Below are positions 12,569 to 50,246 of a stretch of 64,000 bases of DNA, one piece after another. This DNA is from Pararhizobium sp. YC-54. GTDB taxonomy: Bacteria > Pseudomonadota > Alphaproteobacteria > Rhizobiales > Rhizobiaceae. Each line of letters starts with the position of its first letter. Position 1 is the first letter of the stretch. The position numbers were made by a program, and so were the translations under genes. Where the stretch lies: NCBI RefSeq assembly GCF_025847205.1, contig NZ_JAOYTH010000013.1:1-64000 (forward strand), given 5' to 3'. Below the pieces are notes generated by a model that saw only the letters and a program-made list of their open reading frames with translations, made no database searches and had not been told where the DNA came from.

Positions 12569-13135
12569 TCAAGAAATGAAAGCCCGCGACGTCATCGGTG
12601 CGGACGTGGCATCCGGGCCGTATTCGTTTTCGCCGGTCACCTGTAGGATATCCTGCAATCGCTGGCGCGCGCGATTGACCCGGCTCTTGATCGTGCCGAG
12701 CGCGCAACCGCAGATTTCCGCCGCCTCTTCATAGGAAAAGCCGGACGCACCGACAAGAATGATGGCTTCGCGCTGATCCGGCGGCAGCATTTCCAGCGCC
12801 CGCTTGAAATCCTGGAGATCCAGAGAGCCGTATTGCGCCGGGTGCTGAGCAAGCGACTCGGTAAAATAGCCGTCGCTATCTTGAACCTCACGGCCGCGCT
12901 TGCGCATCTGGCTGTAGAGTTCGTTGCGAAGAATGGTGAACAGCCATGCCTTCATGTTGGTGCCCATCTCGAAGTGGTCCTGCTTGGCCCATGCCTTCAT
13001 GATGGTATCCTGCACGAGATCGTCGGCCCGGTCATGCCGGCCGATCAGCGACATGGCAAAGGCACGCAGGCTGGGAAGGGCCGCCAGCATTTCACGCTTG
13101 AAACTGGGTTCCTCAGACGTCATTCCGCCACTCAT
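12569..13135 (-). CDS. ecfG: General stress ECF sigma factor EcfG
   Basis: A 188-residue ECF sigma factor. Region 2 contains GRHDRADDLVQDTIMKAWAK and TNMKAWLFTILRNELYSQMR; region 4 contains LPPDQREAIILVGASGFSYEEAAEICGCALGT..SRVNRARQRL. Linkage to nepR and phyR identifies it as EcfG (RpoE2-like), the sigma factor of the alphaproteobacterial general stress response, recognising GGAAC-N16/17-CGTT promoters. Its start overlaps the nepR stop (ATGA), so the pair is translationally coupled, as is usual. A second ATG at 13123 would shorten it by four residues. Confidence 0.93.
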   Translation of the reverse strand: MSGGMTSEEPSFKREMLAALPSLRAFAMSLIGRHDRADDLVQDTIMKAWAKQDHFEMGTNMKAWLFTILRNELYSQMRKRGREVQDSDGYFTESLAQHPAQYGSLDLQDFKRALEMLPPDQREAIILVGASGFSYEEAAEICGCALGTIKSRVNRARQRLQDILQVTGENEYGPDATSAPMTSRAFIS

Positions 13136-13326
13136 TTTGCCACATCCGGCATCGACCGGCGCTCGACCGCATCGAGCTTCTCAAGCAGGTCAAGGAACCG
13201 GTCCGGAATGGCTTCTTCCTGTACAGAAAGATAGAGAGCGCGAAGCTTCGTTGCAATCTGCGCGTTTGGATTATCGGTACGCGCCGGTCTCACGATCTCG
13301 CGCCCTGCCCCAAGTTTATCCGTCAT
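13132..13326 (-). CDS. nepR: Anti-sigma factor NepR
   Basis: About 64 residues from the ATG at 13326 (MTDKLGAGREIV). The core IATKLRALYLSVQEEAIPDRFLDLLEKLD is the conserved NepR region that clamps EcfG and is sequestered by phosphorylated PhyR. Upstream in-frame starts at 13362 and 13440 would cross the divergent promoter, so the short form is preferred, although the Shine-Dalgarno site (AAGG about 12 nt away) is not ideal. Co-transcribed with ecfG. Confidence 0.85.
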   Translation of the reverse strand: MTDKLGAGREIVRPARTDNPNAQIATKLRALYLSVQEEAIPDRFLDLLEKLDAVERRSMPDVAK

Positions 13327-13393
13327 CAATACCAAATACCTTCGATGTTCATCTGGCAGCATAATGCGCGGTGAAAAAAAATGTTCCGGCAAA

Positions 13394-13420
13394 GGAACCT
13401 TTTTTTTCACATCGCGTTCC
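13394..13420. promoter_or_regulatory. Overlapping divergent EcfG promoters (phyR / nepR-ecfG)
   Basis: On the plus strand GGAAC (13394-13398)-N16-CGTT (13415-13418) is a perfect EcfG promoter for phyR. The same segment read on the minus strand gives GGAAC (13420-13416)-N16-GGTT, one base off consensus, facing nepR-ecfG. The near-palindromic GGAACC...GTTCC ends let one site serve both directions, giving positive autoregulation of the whole partner-switch module. Confidence 0.75.
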
Positions 13421-13467
13421 TTCGCTGTCATGGCCGCCACCTCGGCCAGAGTGAGGGAGTCTTTTAC

Positions 13468-14262
13468 ATGTCACTTTCCACCCGGATCGCTCCGTTCCTG
13501 CCCTATTTGCGCCGGTACTCTCGCGCACTGACGGGATCGCAGACCTCGGGCGACGCCTATGTCGCAGCTGTTCTGGAAGCGCTGATCACCGATGTCAGCA
13601 TATTCCCGGAAGCCAGTAATGACAGGGTTGCTCTTTTTCAGCTGTACACCAAGCTTTTCGGCTCCTCGTCCGTCCTCATCCCAGAACCGGTTTCGCCATT
13701 TGCATGGGAAAAGCGCGCTTCGATCAATCTCGCTTCGGTCTCGCCGCTCGCCCGCCAGGCCTTTCTCCTGGTTTCCGTTGAAGGATTTCGCACAAGCGAG
13801 GCGGCTGAAGTTCTCGACACGACGGAAAGCGGCATGAACCAGTTGCTCGAGCGCGCGTCTGAAGAGATTTCGCGGCAGGTGGCAACGAACATCATGATCA
13901 TTGAGGACGAGCCGCTGATTGCCATCGACATCGAACAGATGGTCGAGAGCCTTGGACATACGGTCACCGGCATCGCCCGCACGCGTGACGAGGCCGTGGC
14001 CCTGTTCAAGGCAACGCGGCCGAGCATGGTGCTTGCCGATATCCAGCTTGCCGATGGCAGTTCCGGCATCGATGCCGTCAACGACATTCTGAAGAATACA
14101 GCTGTTCCTGTCATTTTCATCACTGCATTTCCCGAGCGCCTTTTGACCGGCGAGCGTCCTGAACCAACCTTCCTGGTCACAAAGCCGTTCAACCCGGACA
14201 TGGTCAAAGCGTTGATCAGCCAGGCGCTGTTCTTCAACGAATCCACCAAGGCTGCGGCCTGA
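13468..14262 (+). CDS. phyR: Response regulator PhyR (sigma-like domain plus receiver)
   Basis: 264 residues. The N-terminal part (about 1-135) is a degenerate ECF-sigma-like domain (SVSPLARQAFLLVSVEGFRTSEAAEVLDT); the C-terminal receiver (about 140-260) has acidic residues IIEDEP, phospho-acceptor Asp191 in VLADIQL and the conserved Lys in FLVTKPFN. Phosphorylated PhyR binds NepR through the sigma-like part and frees EcfG. The ATG at 13468 follows GAGGGAG; an in-frame ATG at 13381 lies upstream of the promoter -10 and is excluded. Confidence 0.93.
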   Translation: MSLSTRIAPFLPYLRRYSRALTGSQTSGDAYVAAVLEALITDVSIFPEASNDRVALFQLYTKLFGSSSVLIPEPVSPFAWEKRASINLASVSPLARQAFLLVSVEGFRTSEAAEVLDTTESGMNQLLERASEEISRQVATNIMIIEDEPLIAIDIEQMVESLGHTVTGIARTRDEAVALFKATRPSMVLADIQLADGSSGIDAVNDILKNTAVPVIFITAFPERLLTGERPEPTFLVTKPFNPDMVKALISQALFFNESTKAAA

Positions 14263-14475: not shown

Positions 14476-15489
14476 GTGGGCAATGCAGGCAATTCAGCCT
14501 CAATCAGGACCGGCGCCAGTACCAGCAAGGTTCTGATGGACCTGGTCTTGAAGAAATCAGGCTCGGGCTATGTGTATCAATCGGACGATCTTGATACTGT
14601 TCTTTCGGGAAACCTGCCTGAAGGATTGCAACGGCTGGCGACGGCGCACCAGGCAGATGAATCGGTGTTTGGCGCAGACGACGGCACGCGTTTGATCGCC
14701 TTGAAACGCAGCGTCGCGAGCAACAACACGCCCGCCTCAACCGAAATCGATATAACGTCAGCGACCGGCGTGTTGACATACCGGATCGACATCGAACGCG
14801 TCGATACGCCCGGGATGACCGGAATTCTCTCCGTCATCACCGATATCTCGGAAACCCGGCATCGCGAGCGTATCTTGAAGACCCTGCTGCGCGAACTCAG
14901 CCATCGTTCCAAGAACCTGCTTGCCATCATTCAAGGGATCGCGACACAGACAGCCCGCCAGGCCCTGTCGCTGGACTATTTCCTCACCAAATTCCGCGGG
15001 CGCATCCAGTCGCTGTCCTATTCGCAGGATCTCGTCACCGATTCCAGCTGGCGCGGGGCCTATCTCTTTGCGCTGACGGAGCGCCAGTTCAGCGCCTATT
15101 GGCCGGATTCCGAAACGCCGATTTCCATCAATGGCATCAATGCACATCTATCGCCCAACGCGACGCTGCATATTGGCCTTGCGCTTCACGAACTGATCGT
15201 CAATTCAGCGTCCTATGGCGCGATCTCGGCGGGCGTAAATTCCCTGATGATCGATTGTTTCGAAACAATCCTTGACGAAAATGAAGCCATCGAACTGGCA
15301 TGGATCGAACACCTGCCGCCTGCGGCAACCCAGCGGGAGGCGGACGAGCCTACATTTGCGCGCACGGTGCTGGAGCGTGTCGTGCCCATGGCGATCGGCG
15401 GCAAGGCGATGTATCTGACGACACCCGACCGCATTGAATATCACCTGACCATTCCATCCCGGGAATACGAAATCGTAACCGGCGAATGA
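14476..15489 (+). CDS. HWE/HisKA_2-type histidine kinase of the stress locus
   Basis: 337 residues, soluble. A PAS-like N-terminal part (about 15-130, ending ILSVITDISETRHRER) leads to the dimerisation box LLRELSHRSKNLLAIIQGIA (His143) and a catalytic domain with LHIGLALHELIVNSASYGAIS. WIEH near the C-terminus corresponds to the WxE motif. GTG start at 14476 with GGAAGG 8 nt upstream. Placement next to phyR suggests it phosphorylates PhyR, as the PhyK/RsiB-type kinases do. No sensory ligand can be read from sequence. Confidence 0.85.
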   Translation: MGNAGNSASIRTGASTSKVLMDLVLKKSGSGYVYQSDDLDTVLSGNLPEGLQRLATAHQADESVFGADDGTRLIALKRSVASNNTPASTEIDITSATGVLTYRIDIERVDTPGMTGILSVITDISETRHRERILKTLLRELSHRSKNLLAIIQGIATQTARQALSLDYFLTKFRGRIQSLSYSQDLVTDSSWRGAYLFALTERQFSAYWPDSETPISINGINAHLSPNATLHIGLALHELIVNSASYGAISAGVNSLMIDCFETILDENEAIELAWIEHLPPAATQREADEPTFARTVLERVVPMAIGGKAMYLTTPDRIEYHLTIPSREYEIVTGE

Positions 15490-15543
15490 CGCCTGCAGTA
15501 CCGCTGCACGCTCTCTCGGAGTTGACCTTCCAGGAAAATGGTC

Positions 15544-15578
15544 AAAAAACAGCCAGCGCCGGGGGAAGGCACTGGCTG
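15544..15578 (-). terminator. Intrinsic terminator of the small RNA
   Basis: Stem CAGCCAGTGCC / GGCGCTGGCTG (minus strand, one mismatch; positions 15578-15550) followed immediately by TTTTTT (15549-15544). Strong Rho-independent terminator. It also ends any read-through from the upstream polyol operon. Confidence 0.85.
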
Positions 15579-15672
15579 ATATTGACAGCTCACCGAGGGG
15601 GTGTGTGAGCTGAGTGCCGGACATTTAAATGGGGTTCACATTGGGGGCGATGTGAACGGCTATCCGGACTTC
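15544..15672 (-). ncRNA. EcfG-driven small RNA, GsrN-like candidate
   Basis: Predicted transcript of about 129 nt. The start is inferred from the promoter at 15678-15702. Reading 5'-3' on the minus strand: hairpin 1 (15657-15634) has an 8-bp perfect stem GTTCACAT/ATGTGAAC and a C-rich loop CGCCCCCA; hairpin 2 (15612-15586) has an 8-bp perfect stem CAGCTCAC/GTGAGCTG and loop ACACCCCCTCG; hairpin 3 with a U-run is an intrinsic terminator. No reading frame is supported. GsrN, the stress sRNA of Caulobacter, is likewise transcribed by EcfG, is encoded near stress regulators in several Alphaproteobacteria, and pairs with mRNA leaders through C-rich loops. Identity with GsrN is inference; the promoter, hairpins and terminator are visible. 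Confidence 0.78.
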
Positions 15673-15677
15673 ACAGA

Positions 15678-15702
15678 AACGAGCCGGCAAAGAAAAAGTT
15701 CC
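15678..15702 (-). promoter_or_regulatory. Perfect EcfG promoter of the small RNA
   Basis: On the minus strand GGAAC (15702-15698), 16 nt, CGTT (15681-15678). No protein-coding gene lies downstream on this strand before the terminator at 15544, so the promoter can only serve a non-coding transcript. Confidence 0.85.
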
Positions 15703-15745: not shown

Positions 15746-17326
15746 TCAAAGCATTTCCAGCTCGGCGCGGTGCCTGTAGAGGCTAAGGAACTTGCGATAG
15801 TCGCGATCATAGGTTTCCCGCATGTCCGCATTCGGATATTGCGCATGGCCGCCGGGATACATGGCCGGTCCGGCGGCGCGCAGGTCCGGATAGAGGCCGC
15901 CGGCGACCGAGGCGACCATGGCCGTGCCGAGCAGGACGGCATCATTGGTTTCCGGCACGACGACCGTGCAGCCGGTCACATCGCAATAGAGTTCCATCAA
16001 CAGCACGTTGCGGACATGGCCGCCGGTCACATGCAGGGTATCGAGATCGTAACCCGCCTCCTTCATCATTTCCAGAATGTGGCGAACGCCGAGTGCTATC
16101 GCCACGCAGGTGCGCCAATACAGCCGGCAGAGCGCGTCGAACGAACTATCCAGCGTCAAACCGCTGATGACGCCGAGTGCATGCGGATCGGCAAGCGGCG
16201 AGCGATTGCCGTGAAAATCCGGCAGGACGTGCAGACGCGCGGCAAATTCACTGCCGTAAGCTGCGCGCAGTTCCTGAATGCGAAGCACGATCCGCGCGTG
16301 AACCTCGGCATCCGGCTCGCCGCCGGCACTGTGGCTGCGCACGACATGATCAAGCAGAGCGCCGGTTGCCGATTGTCCGCCCTCGATCAGCCAGCTGTCT
16401 GCAAACGCCGCCTCGAAGTAAGGCCCCCACATGCCGAAGCCCGGCTTCATCTCCTTGGAAAAGGCGACGATGCAGCTGGAGGTTCCCGCGATCAAGGCGA
16501 GTTGCCGCTCCAGCTTGTCCGGCTCGCCGGCAAAGCCGCCGAGCACGCCGATGGCGCCTGCATAGGCGTCGATCACCCCCGTCGCCACCTTGCAGGCCTC
16601 ATGCAGACCCAGTTCGGCCGCCGCCGCCGCCGTCAGATGCCCGACCGATTGCCCGACCGGCAGCGTCTTTTCCGGCAGCGCGCCGCGCGCGCGCAAGTCC
16701 TCAAGCCCGATCCTGGCGAGGAACTCATCCTGCCAGCCGTTCTCCTTATGGGAAAGATAGTTCCACTTGGCCGTCAGCGTGCAGCGCGACCGTGCGGCAT
16801 TGCCGGTTGCCCGCCAGGACATGAAATCGGCGAGATCGAAGAAATATCCCGTCTTTTCCCACTGTTGCCGCAGGTTCTGCTTCAGCCACATCAGCTTCGG
16901 CATTTCCATTTCCGGCGACATCACGCGGCCGGAATGGTTGAGGACAGGATGTTGCGTGGCCGTGCAGAAATCAGCCTGCTTCAGCGCCCGATGATCGAGC
17001 CAGACGATCGTATCCCAGCGCGGATCGCCCTTGCGGTTGACCGACAAAGGCGCACCGTCCATGCCCCGCACGACCAGCGAGCAGGTCGCATCGAACCCGA
17101 TCGCAGCGATCGCTTCGGAGGGCACGCCAGCCTTGGCACGCGCCGTTTTGACGGCAATGCAGACGGCAGACCAGATATTTTCGGAATCATGCTCGGCGTG
17201 ATTTTCTTCCGGCCGGTTCATCGCGATCGGATAGTCCGCGCGGGCCAACTGCTTGCCATGCCTATCGAAAATGCCGGCGCGTGCGCTGCCGGTTCCGACA
17301 TCGACAGCAACGATCAAATCAGCCAT
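15746..17326 (-). CDS. FGGY-family pentulose kinase
   Basis: A 526-residue sugar kinase of the FGGY family. N-terminal phosphate loop VAVDVGTGSARAGIFD, GFDATCSLV and DTIVWLDHRA (catalytic aspartate region) in the first half; LIAGTSSCIVAF and DTLHVTGGHVRNVLLMELYCDVTG (adenosine-binding) in the second. It resembles the D-ribulokinase/L-ribulokinase type; in polyol operons the likely substrate is a ketopentose or ketohexose formed by the dehydrogenases. Start overlaps the HAD gene stop (ATGA). Last gene of the smo-mtlK operon; substrate not certain. Confidence 0.85.
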   Translation of the reverse strand: MADLIVAVDVGTGSARAGIFDRHGKQLARADYPIAMNRPEENHAEHDSENIWSAVCIAVKTARAKAGVPSEAIAAIGFDATCSLVVRGMDGAPLSVNRKGDPRWDTIVWLDHRALKQADFCTATQHPVLNHSGRVMSPEMEMPKLMWLKQNLRQQWEKTGYFFDLADFMSWRATGNAARSRCTLTAKWNYLSHKENGWQDEFLARIGLEDLRARGALPEKTLPVGQSVGHLTAAAAAELGLHEACKVATGVIDAYAGAIGVLGGFAGEPDKLERQLALIAGTSSCIVAFSKEMKPGFGMWGPYFEAAFADSWLIEGGQSATGALLDHVVRSHSAGGEPDAEVHARIVLRIQELRAAYGSEFAARLHVLPDFHGNRSPLADPHALGVISGLTLDSSFDALCRLYWRTCVAIALGVRHILEMMKEAGYDLDTLHVTGGHVRNVLLMELYCDVTGCTVVVPETNDAVLLGTAMVASVAGGLYPDLRAAGPAMYPGGHAQYPNADMRETYDRDYRKFLSLYRHRAELEML

Positions 17327-47886: not shown

Positions 47887-49596
<1,710 letters not shown>

Positions 49597-49601
49597 GGCT
49601 A

Positions 49602-50246
49602 TCAGGCTCCCTGAGCAAAGGCGGATAAAATATTCTGGTCGAGGCGGAAGAGCCGCCCCTTGGAAATCAGGTCATCGACATAGCGGCGCTCGGCGGCGAA
49701 CGGGTGCCACTCCCAGCCGGCGTGGCCGAAACCGGCAAGCACGACACGGTCGCCCGGCTGGCGCCAATGGGCAAGCACCTCGGCGATGACGATCAGGCCG
49801 CTGCTCGGCACGACATATTCGCCGGGATCGAAGCGATTCAACCCTGCATCGACCTCCTCATGCGTGGAAGGCGGGACGACATGGAAACTTCGACCCGTCG
49901 CCTTGGCGAAAGCCCGAAAGCCATCGGTATAATCGTCGCAGAGATCGTCAAGATCAGGGTGGCGTCTCTCGATTTCCGGCCGCAGCATCTCAAATTTTTC
50001 GGCTGCCCGGACGCACCAAATCGCACTTGCCTGCCGCACTGCCGCACTCGTCTTCCACCGGCCGCCGCCCAGCATCGCCAGCGCCGGGCGCCCGGTATTG
50101 CAGACGGCGACAATATCCGTCTTGCCTTCACCCGCGCCGCGGCAGTCGTTGAAGCGGATCACCAGATCGGCGGCATCGATGATCACCACAGCAGCGTCCG
50201 GCACCGGCCCGTTTCCGACGATCATGATGGTCCGGCTTGACGTCAC
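49602..50246 (-). CDS. Rhizobial urease-operon accessory protein, function unknown
   Basis: 214 residues. N-terminal glycine-rich [11 protein letters not shown] followed by [32 protein letters not shown], reminiscent of nucleotide-sugar/sialyltransferase-like folds; [27 protein letters not shown] closes the protein. It lies between ureB and ureC in rhizobial urease operons. Start: GTG 50246, with GAGG 5 nt upstream (overlapping the ureB stop), giving [17 protein letters not shown] 50225 is the alternative. Role in urease maturation is inferred only from position. Confidence 0.75.

Follow-up and report, generated by a model that had tools for sequence, protein, structure and literature searches.

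The window, as we call the whole 64,000-nucleotide stretch of DNA analyzed here, comes from Pararhizobium sp. YC-54, whose genome assembly comprises 54 contigs and 6.24 Mb. It carries a general stress locus made up of genes for an EcfG sigma factor (positions 12569 to 13135, minus strand; Pfam Sigma70_r2 and r4_2, with EcfG identity assigned from its place beside NepR and PhyR), the NepR anti-sigma factor (13132 to 13440, minus strand; Pfam NepR, 7.5e-15, start codon uncertain), the PhyR response regulator (13468 to 14262, plus strand; Pfam PhyR_sigma2, PhyR_sigma-like, and Response_reg), and an HWE histidine kinase in the TcrY position (14476 to 15489, plus strand; Pfam HWE_HK, 3e-22). A motif search also placed an EcfG-type motif upstream of phyR (13394 to 13418, plus strand). 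The gap after phyR-tcrY holds a small RNA that is transcribed toward tcrY and is thus convergent with it, and upstream of this RNA, on the same strand, lies a gene for an FGGY carbohydrate kinase (15746 to 17326, minus strand; Pfam FGGY_N and FGGY_C). The first-pass annotation of this DNA had proposed that the convergent gap after the stress kinase contains a perfect EcfG promoter, a pair of perfect 8-bp hairpins with CCCCC in their loops, and a strong intrinsic terminator, all within about 160 bp of one strand, and our analysis bore out each of these elements. The kinase stop lies at 15489 and the RNA end at 15544; the promoter (GGAAC-N16-CGTT, GGAACTTTTTCTTTGCCGGCTCGTT), supported by the motif search and by conservation among loci, runs from 15702 to 15678 on the minus strand; and the whole arrangement occupies 159 bp (15544 to 15702) of that strand. 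By eye, the kinase gene is followed by no obvious T-run terminator before the small RNA (window positions 15490 to 15580, plus strand), and read-through from phyR-tcrY past this region would yield an antisense transcript of the small RNA.

The predicted primary transcript is about 125 nt long (15544 to 15672, minus strand), with a start inferred from promoter spacing to within 3 nt. In the predicted fold, an outer stem (P1), missed in the first-pass annotation, pairs 15669-15661 with 15623-15615, is supported by base-pair analysis with compensatory changes at one pair, and encloses hairpin 1 (P2; 15657-15634), whose 8-bp stem carries the loop CGCCCCCA at 15642-15649. Hairpin 2 (P3; 15612-15586) likewise has an 8-bp stem and exposes a CCCCCUC loop at 15595-15602 (loop region ACACCCCCUCG). 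The terminator (15578-15544) is an 11-bp hairpin followed by T6, and its loop, UUCCCCC, is a third C-rich loop that had also gone unrecorded. The three loops of the window RNA are therefore CGCCCCCA, ACCCCCUC, and UUCCCCC, with CCCCC in each. An additional claim, that the stretch has no reading frame, stands in substance and not to the letter: a mechanical 139-aa open reading frame (15624-15205, minus strand) begins within the RNA, but its frame is not kept among relatives because of indels in the linkers.

We compared these elements with chance expectations. A 137-nt segment folded at -56.5 kcal/mol (z of -8.0), and none of 200 shuffled sequences was equally stable. Two or more hairpin loops with CCCC appeared in 13 of 300 shuffles, so C-rich loops by themselves are not rare. 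The EcfG promoter motif occurs 4 times in the window against 0.98 expected, with as many in 1 of 100 shuffles, and 129 times genome-wide against 154 for the motif reversed; the promoter motif by itself is weak evidence. What lifts these elements above chance is their conservation, namely the genus-wide match and the promoter found upstream of the RNA at every one of 56 loci.

The region was matched by BLASTn in all 25 genomes of the genus that were searched, the source genome included, and in none of 16 genomes from other families of the order. All 25 congeners share UCGCCCCCAAUG in loop 1 and CCCCUC in loop 2 without change, and their linkers vary. The two-loop pattern is also present in 25 stretches of named records, which by their depositors' names include Pararhizobium polonicum, P. 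arenae, P. antarcticum, Rhizobium giardinii, R. herbae, Xaviernesmea oryzae, and Ferranicluibacter rubi, along with further Rhizobium or Rhizobiales strains. At each of the 56 loci, the RNA is immediately preceded by a GGAAC-type promoter when the -10 element is allowed to be CGTT (37 loci) or TGTT or CATT (19 loci). A second set of 29 loci, which overlaps the first in part since some genomes are common to both, has such a promoter in 27; the two misses (L143 and L165) keep GGAAC and have AGTT at -10. The terminator stem element CAGCC is invariant in 25 of 25 diverse sequences. Hairpin 2 exposes CCCC at all 56 loci and CCCCUC at 50, and loop 1 has CCCC at 52; the four exceptions are Rhizobium sensu stricto, and further Rhizobium loci in the 29-locus set agree in having a loop 1 that lacks CCCC. 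Loop 2 is thus more constant than loop 1 across the family. Conservation of the loops, which had been proposed as a check, accordingly holds throughout the genus but not for loop 1 in Rhizobium sensu stricto, where it reads ACCCAA with three C. Of the 56 loci, 55 have two or more predicted hairpin loops that contain CCC. Four loci of Rhizobium sensu stricto have a single predicted CCCC hairpin loop each, and four Shinella loci have one or two.

Base-pair changes support the fold. In an alignment of the 25 congeners (A1), consensus pairs are formed in 98.1% of cells, compared with 96.2% after shuffling and 27 to 38% when the partner was slid, and two-sided changes were seen in 16 cells against 4.3 in shuffles; the number of pairs showing a two-sided change (5 against 3.1) is only modestly above expectation, with 55 of 500 shuffles as high. 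In an alignment of eight divergent loci (A4), 96.5% of cells are paired, with two-sided changes in 12 cells against 3.4 and at 7 pairs against 2.7. For both alignments the comparison with shuffles can be inflated by relatedness of the sequences. A MAFFT alignment across genera (A3) was too poor at the outer stem and hairpin 2, with only 14 pairs kept by RNAalifold, and the structure counts therefore rest on the within-clade alignments A1 and A4. One further alignment (A2) has a false row (L035, plus strand), and the counts make no use of this alignment.

To follow the RNA beyond the genus, we used two covariance models: R1, built from the 25 congeners and without Rhizobium sensu stricto, and R2, built from the eight divergent loci only. 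R1 matches the window at 15544-15677 with 147.9 bits, the model having been built in part from the window RNA itself. R2 matches at 15544-15674 with 31.8 bits (E of 5e-4 in the whole genome), the sole match at E up to 0.01 in the source genome. Since R2, made from divergent loci only, recovers the window RNA, the finding is reciprocal between the two models. At E up to 1, R1 has matches in 74 of 297 Rhizobiaceae genomes, and we accepted the RNA in 38 of the 297, representing 13 of 109 genera; this answers the call for a check of conservation beside phyR in other Rhizobiaceae. All 38 accepted loci have phyR and/or a TcrY-type kinase, and one of them (G094) is found by R1 at E of 0.002 and by R2 at 112 bits. 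In Sinorhizobium, Ensifer, and Shinella, to which RNA-bearing genera were assigned by comparing their other contigs with named plasmids, phyR itself is the neighbor and a TcrY homolog was not found at these loci. Among 148 genomes of Rhizobium sensu stricto, R1 has a match in 146, and the RNA follows phyR and tcrY in all 17 of the loci that were read. The 12 kb compared from a plasmid record labeled Roseateles sp. XES5 (NZ_CP084753.1) is identical to a stretch of a genome in the window's family, with Shinella as the next best matches, and the organism label looks wrong.

The matches in the other 36 of the 74 genomes were all inspected with flanks of 700 to 1,000 bases and dropped. In 31 of them the match falls within the coding sequence of a single MFS transporter (Pfam MFS_1 in the source genome's own copy). 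The remaining five (G093, G118, G151, G166, and G305) lie outside the transporter, and neither a homolog of phyR, nepR, ecfG, or the kinase nor an EcfG-type promoter was found around them. The same transporter accounts for a putative paralog, as weak R1 matches of about 89 to 126 nt (for example, G000:C4:65374-65462) are transporter coding sequence and not a second copy, and for all 11 second weak R1 matches that were read in kept genomes. Outside the source genome, R1 gave nothing credible in 289 genomes of the class; none of the class-level matches (L106 to L110) has phyR or its neighbors, and the two that were read (L106 and L107) lack an EcfG promoter. Weak R1 or R2 matches near phyR in L078, L080, and L099 do not have the promoter in the right place, and R2 matches in G162 (E of 0.001) and G315 (E of 0.006), with neither neighbor gene nor promoter, were not counted. 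At 30 PhyR loci of other Rhizobiaceae (L076 to L105), R1 and R2 found nothing with a fitting promoter. By our count, in 26 of these 30 loci an EcfG-type motif stands shortly downstream of phyR and points away from it, without C-rich hairpins. No Rfam family matches the small RNA at the gathering cutoff.

An RNA already known from this position is ReC64 of Rhizobium etli, which lies downstream of phyR-tcrY with an EcfG1 motif and a RACE-mapped start (Jans et al. 2013, PMC3892343). Expression of its reporter was reported there to be abolished without ecfG1 and to be activated by EcfG1 or EcfG2 in Escherichia coli. On a Northern blot, ReC64 gave an 88-nt band and an unexplained larger one (Vercruysse et al. 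2010, PMC2881028), and it was raised under saline shock (Lopez-Leal et al. 2014, PMC4167512). R1 finds the R. etli CFN42 locus with 60.4 bits (E of 8.8e-12). A primer stretch from R. etli CFN42, with up to 3 mismatches, was present in four of four genomes of one genus in our collection (g46) and in 1 of 29 others, which identifies this genus as Rhizobium sensu stricto. The exact stretch occurs in 2 of the 148 Rhizobium sensu stricto genomes; in one of these (G637), 12 kb match the CFN42 plasmid NC_007762.1 (p42a) at 100%, as three other Rhizobium records do equally or nearly so, and we take G637 to be R. etli CFN42. The chromosome contig of G637 encodes EcfG, NepR, PhyR, and TcrY, followed by an R1 match with a GGAAC-N16-CGTT promoter and a terminator.

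By place, model score, and structure, the window RNA is orthologous to ReC64, with promoter, terminator, and C-rich loops conserved. Both RNAs sit convergently after phyR-tcrY behind an EcfG promoter, and both combine an outer stem enclosing a nested hairpin, a second C-rich hairpin, and a CAGCC-type terminator. They differ in their loops, as the predicted loop 1 and loop 2 of ReC64 read ACCCAA and UCCCCUC, whereas the window RNA has CCCCC in all three. They also differ in length, with 88 nt published for ReC64 against about 125 nt predicted from promoter to terminator in the window. The size mismatch counts against the ReC64 reading, although about 125 nt may correspond to the larger ReC64 band and 88 nt to a processed piece. 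On balance, we assign a probability of about 0.78 to the interpretation that the window RNA is the Pararhizobium ortholog of ReC64, an approximately 125-nt noncoding, EcfG-driven RNA that acts in trans through pairing of its C-rich loops with mRNA. The first-pass proposal that a small RNA under EcfG control, with C-rich loops, lies beside phyR is well supported, and for the R. etli ortholog ReC64 others have shown the dependence on EcfG1 (PMC3892343). The small RNA is real, but mostly not new.

The first-pass annotation had gone further and suggested that the RNA would be the rhizobial counterpart of GsrN of Caulobacter crescentus, one that protein annotation does not report. Such a proposal has already been published for Rhizobiaceae: in 2018, Tien et al. 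(PMC5869019) suggested that RNAs near the locus in R. etli, Sinorhizobium meliloti, Brucella, and Agrobacterium are GsrN homologs, mainly on the basis of place, promoter, and expression, together with an exposed C-rich loop. In that paper, the Agrobacterium RNA was found by BLASTn with the R. etli RNA, BLASTn matches of GsrN itself are given as ending at Caulobacteraceae, and pairing of the C-rich loop with G-tracts is the demonstrated mode of GsrN action. The window RNA resembles GsrN in its EcfG (SigT) promoter, in being a stress RNA proposed to act in trans, and in exposing a C-rich loop in its 5' portion (loop 1, CGCCCCCA, in the predicted fold). In contrast, the targeting loop of GsrN contains six C and acts on a G-tract in the katG leader, and in ReC64-type RNAs it is the second loop that is more constant. 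The katG leader of the source genome contains no run of four G, the longest being GGG (one genome; start codon uncertain). No sequence link to GsrN was found with R1 in the 289 class genomes, the katG leader lacks a G-tract, and loop 2 varies less than loop 1, so that the analysis does not show the RNA to belong to the GsrN family; GsrN fits as a possible mode of action and not as a family assignment. GsrN is processed to a stable 5' isoform and stabilized by Hfq; the two bands reported for ReC64 are compatible with such a pattern but are not evidence for it.

An explanation that we consider unlikely, though worth stating, is that the ReC64 class evolved independently in Rhizobiaceae and does not descend from GsrN. 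The constant loop 2 (CCCCUC or CCCCUCC) would then copy the anti-Shine-Dalgarno word of 16S rRNA, the RNA would serve under EcfG as a broad competitor for ribosome-binding sites in times of stress, and the extra C-rich loops would have been added in Pararhizobium. If this origin were true, general stress systems would have recruited C-rich RNAs more than once.

An anti-Shine-Dalgarno function would also follow if the RNA were a member of the ar14 family, whose CCUCCUCCC-type loops would make it a general blocker of ribosome-binding sites and not a stress-specific regulator. The Rfam ar14 model (RF02344) aligns with the RNA from end to end (26.4 bits, E of 0.0029 in a 281-base search), with the outer stem, C-rich hairpin, and terminator with its C-rich loop in the same order, and in Rhizobium, as in the Shinella clade, the sequence of loop 2 is CCCCUCC or CCCCCUCC and holds the anti-Shine-Dalgarno word CCUCC. 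However, 26.4 bits is far under the gathering score of 58.8, and a genome-wide search at E up to 1 lists four genuine ar14 copies at other places (95 to 122 bits) but not the candidate. For the R. etli ortholog, too, ar14 is absent from the matches at E up to 1 (the best Rfam match being ar35, with 15.7 bits and E of 0.69), and the Rfam ar14 consensus has CCUCCUCCC anti-Shine-Dalgarno loops, whereas the window loops (CGCCCCCA, ACCCCCUC, and UUCCCCC) lack CCUCC. We therefore regard membership in ar14 as very unlikely.

To look for possible mRNA partners of the ReC64 ortholog, we searched four congener genomes for sites no more than 28 nt from an ATG that carry the 9-nt loop 1 complement. Of the 56 places found, 5 were simply the complement of the RNA itself and 4 duplicated an overlapping site; the remaining 47 stretches were all read. 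Six-frame comparison of the 47 stretches between genomes yielded nine pairs, most of them in repABC plasmid operons. In L189, L194, L208, and L218, from three of the four genomes, the complement lies at the 3' end of repA (around base 300 of the matched strand), and repB starts between 6 nt (L194) and some tens of nucleotides past it. Because the word, by our reading of the frames, encodes the end of RepA, this recurrence is explained as coding, and we regard the repA-repB site as a lead from sequence and not as evidence. In another pair (L185 and L225) the complement lies at different places, and matches at a DeoR-type gene (L211) and a membrane-protein-like one (L203) are single and unsupported. 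Plain duplex energies, which ignore folding, were discarded. A G6 tract between phyR and tcrY in the window was rejected as a conserved target, since a run of at least five G is present in only 8 of 40 rows, which include some genomes twice. No convincing target thus emerged among the 47 loop 1 complement sites near an ATG in the four genomes, and the function of the small RNA accordingly rests on analogy.

Two points favor reading the RNA as a titrator, with three C-rich loops that do not pair with mRNA leaders but sequester a protein or G-rich RNA: this small test gave no convincing conserved mRNA complement, and in the genus each RNA has three similar loops, with loop and stem strongly kept. 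We find this reading improbable, given that CCCC loops drop to one in four Rhizobium sensu stricto loci and to one or two in four Shinella loci, and that pairing of a C-rich loop with G-tracts is the mode demonstrated for GsrN (PMC5869019). Finally, the FGGY kinase gene precedes the RNA on its strand and stops about 40 bp before the promoter motif, which could suggest a 3'-untranslated-region-derived or attenuator element of the kinase mRNA and not an independent gene. This notion is made extremely unlikely by the promoter directly upstream of the RNA at all 56 loci, by 15 Rhizobium sensu stricto loci and a longer R. etli stretch in which the RNA is present with no FGGY homolog (within about 1.5 kb for the 15 loci), and by the RACE-mapped start of the R. 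etli ortholog at its promoter (PMC3892343).

For a ReC64-type regulator, the likely course of events, by analogy, would begin with PhyR removing NepR, which would leave EcfG free to transcribe the small RNA up to its own terminator. The C-rich loops, above all CCCC(U)C of loop 2, would most probably base-pair with mRNAs at G-rich leaders or ribosome-binding regions, and such pairing would alter their translation or stability during general stress. We infer the pairing, the loop used, the targets, and the sign of regulation; as CCCC is kept in loop 2 at 56 of 56 loci and in loop 1 at 52, loop 2 would be expected to be the main pairing site. Conservation thereby points to the loop for a first mutation in R. 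etli, for which promoter fusions and ecfG mutants already exist (PMC3892343).

What is known of the general stress response in Alphaproteobacteria mostly concerns a transcription switch; the RNA layer is documented in Caulobacter (GsrN) and no more than sketched in rhizobia. To this, our analysis adds a calibrated model, base-pair evidence, homology-based family borders, and the prediction for loop 2. The outcome is a family that is supported by its structure, has borders sampled across Rhizobiaceae (13 of 109 genera), and lacks an Rfam match at the cutoff, and the model can be used to annotate Rhizobiaceae genomes.

Two further observations concern other parts of the source genome. A separate stretch (G000:C5:40500-60000, L156) contains ten EcfG-type motifs (GGAAC-N16/17-CGTT) in 18.6 kb, where about 0.4 would be expected from a baseline of 129 motifs per 6.24 Mb, the stretch having been picked after the motif list was seen. 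It encodes a second PhyR (265 aa), a NepR-like piece, BON-domain and PRC-barrel proteins, and FAD oxidoreductases and is a possible general stress island. In the window itself, positions 49155-49443 (plus strand) match the Rfam family 5_ureB_sRNA (RF02514) with 135 bits, antisense inside a frame that by eye resembles urease alpha (47890-49671, minus strand); this match most likely just reflects the conservation of urease.
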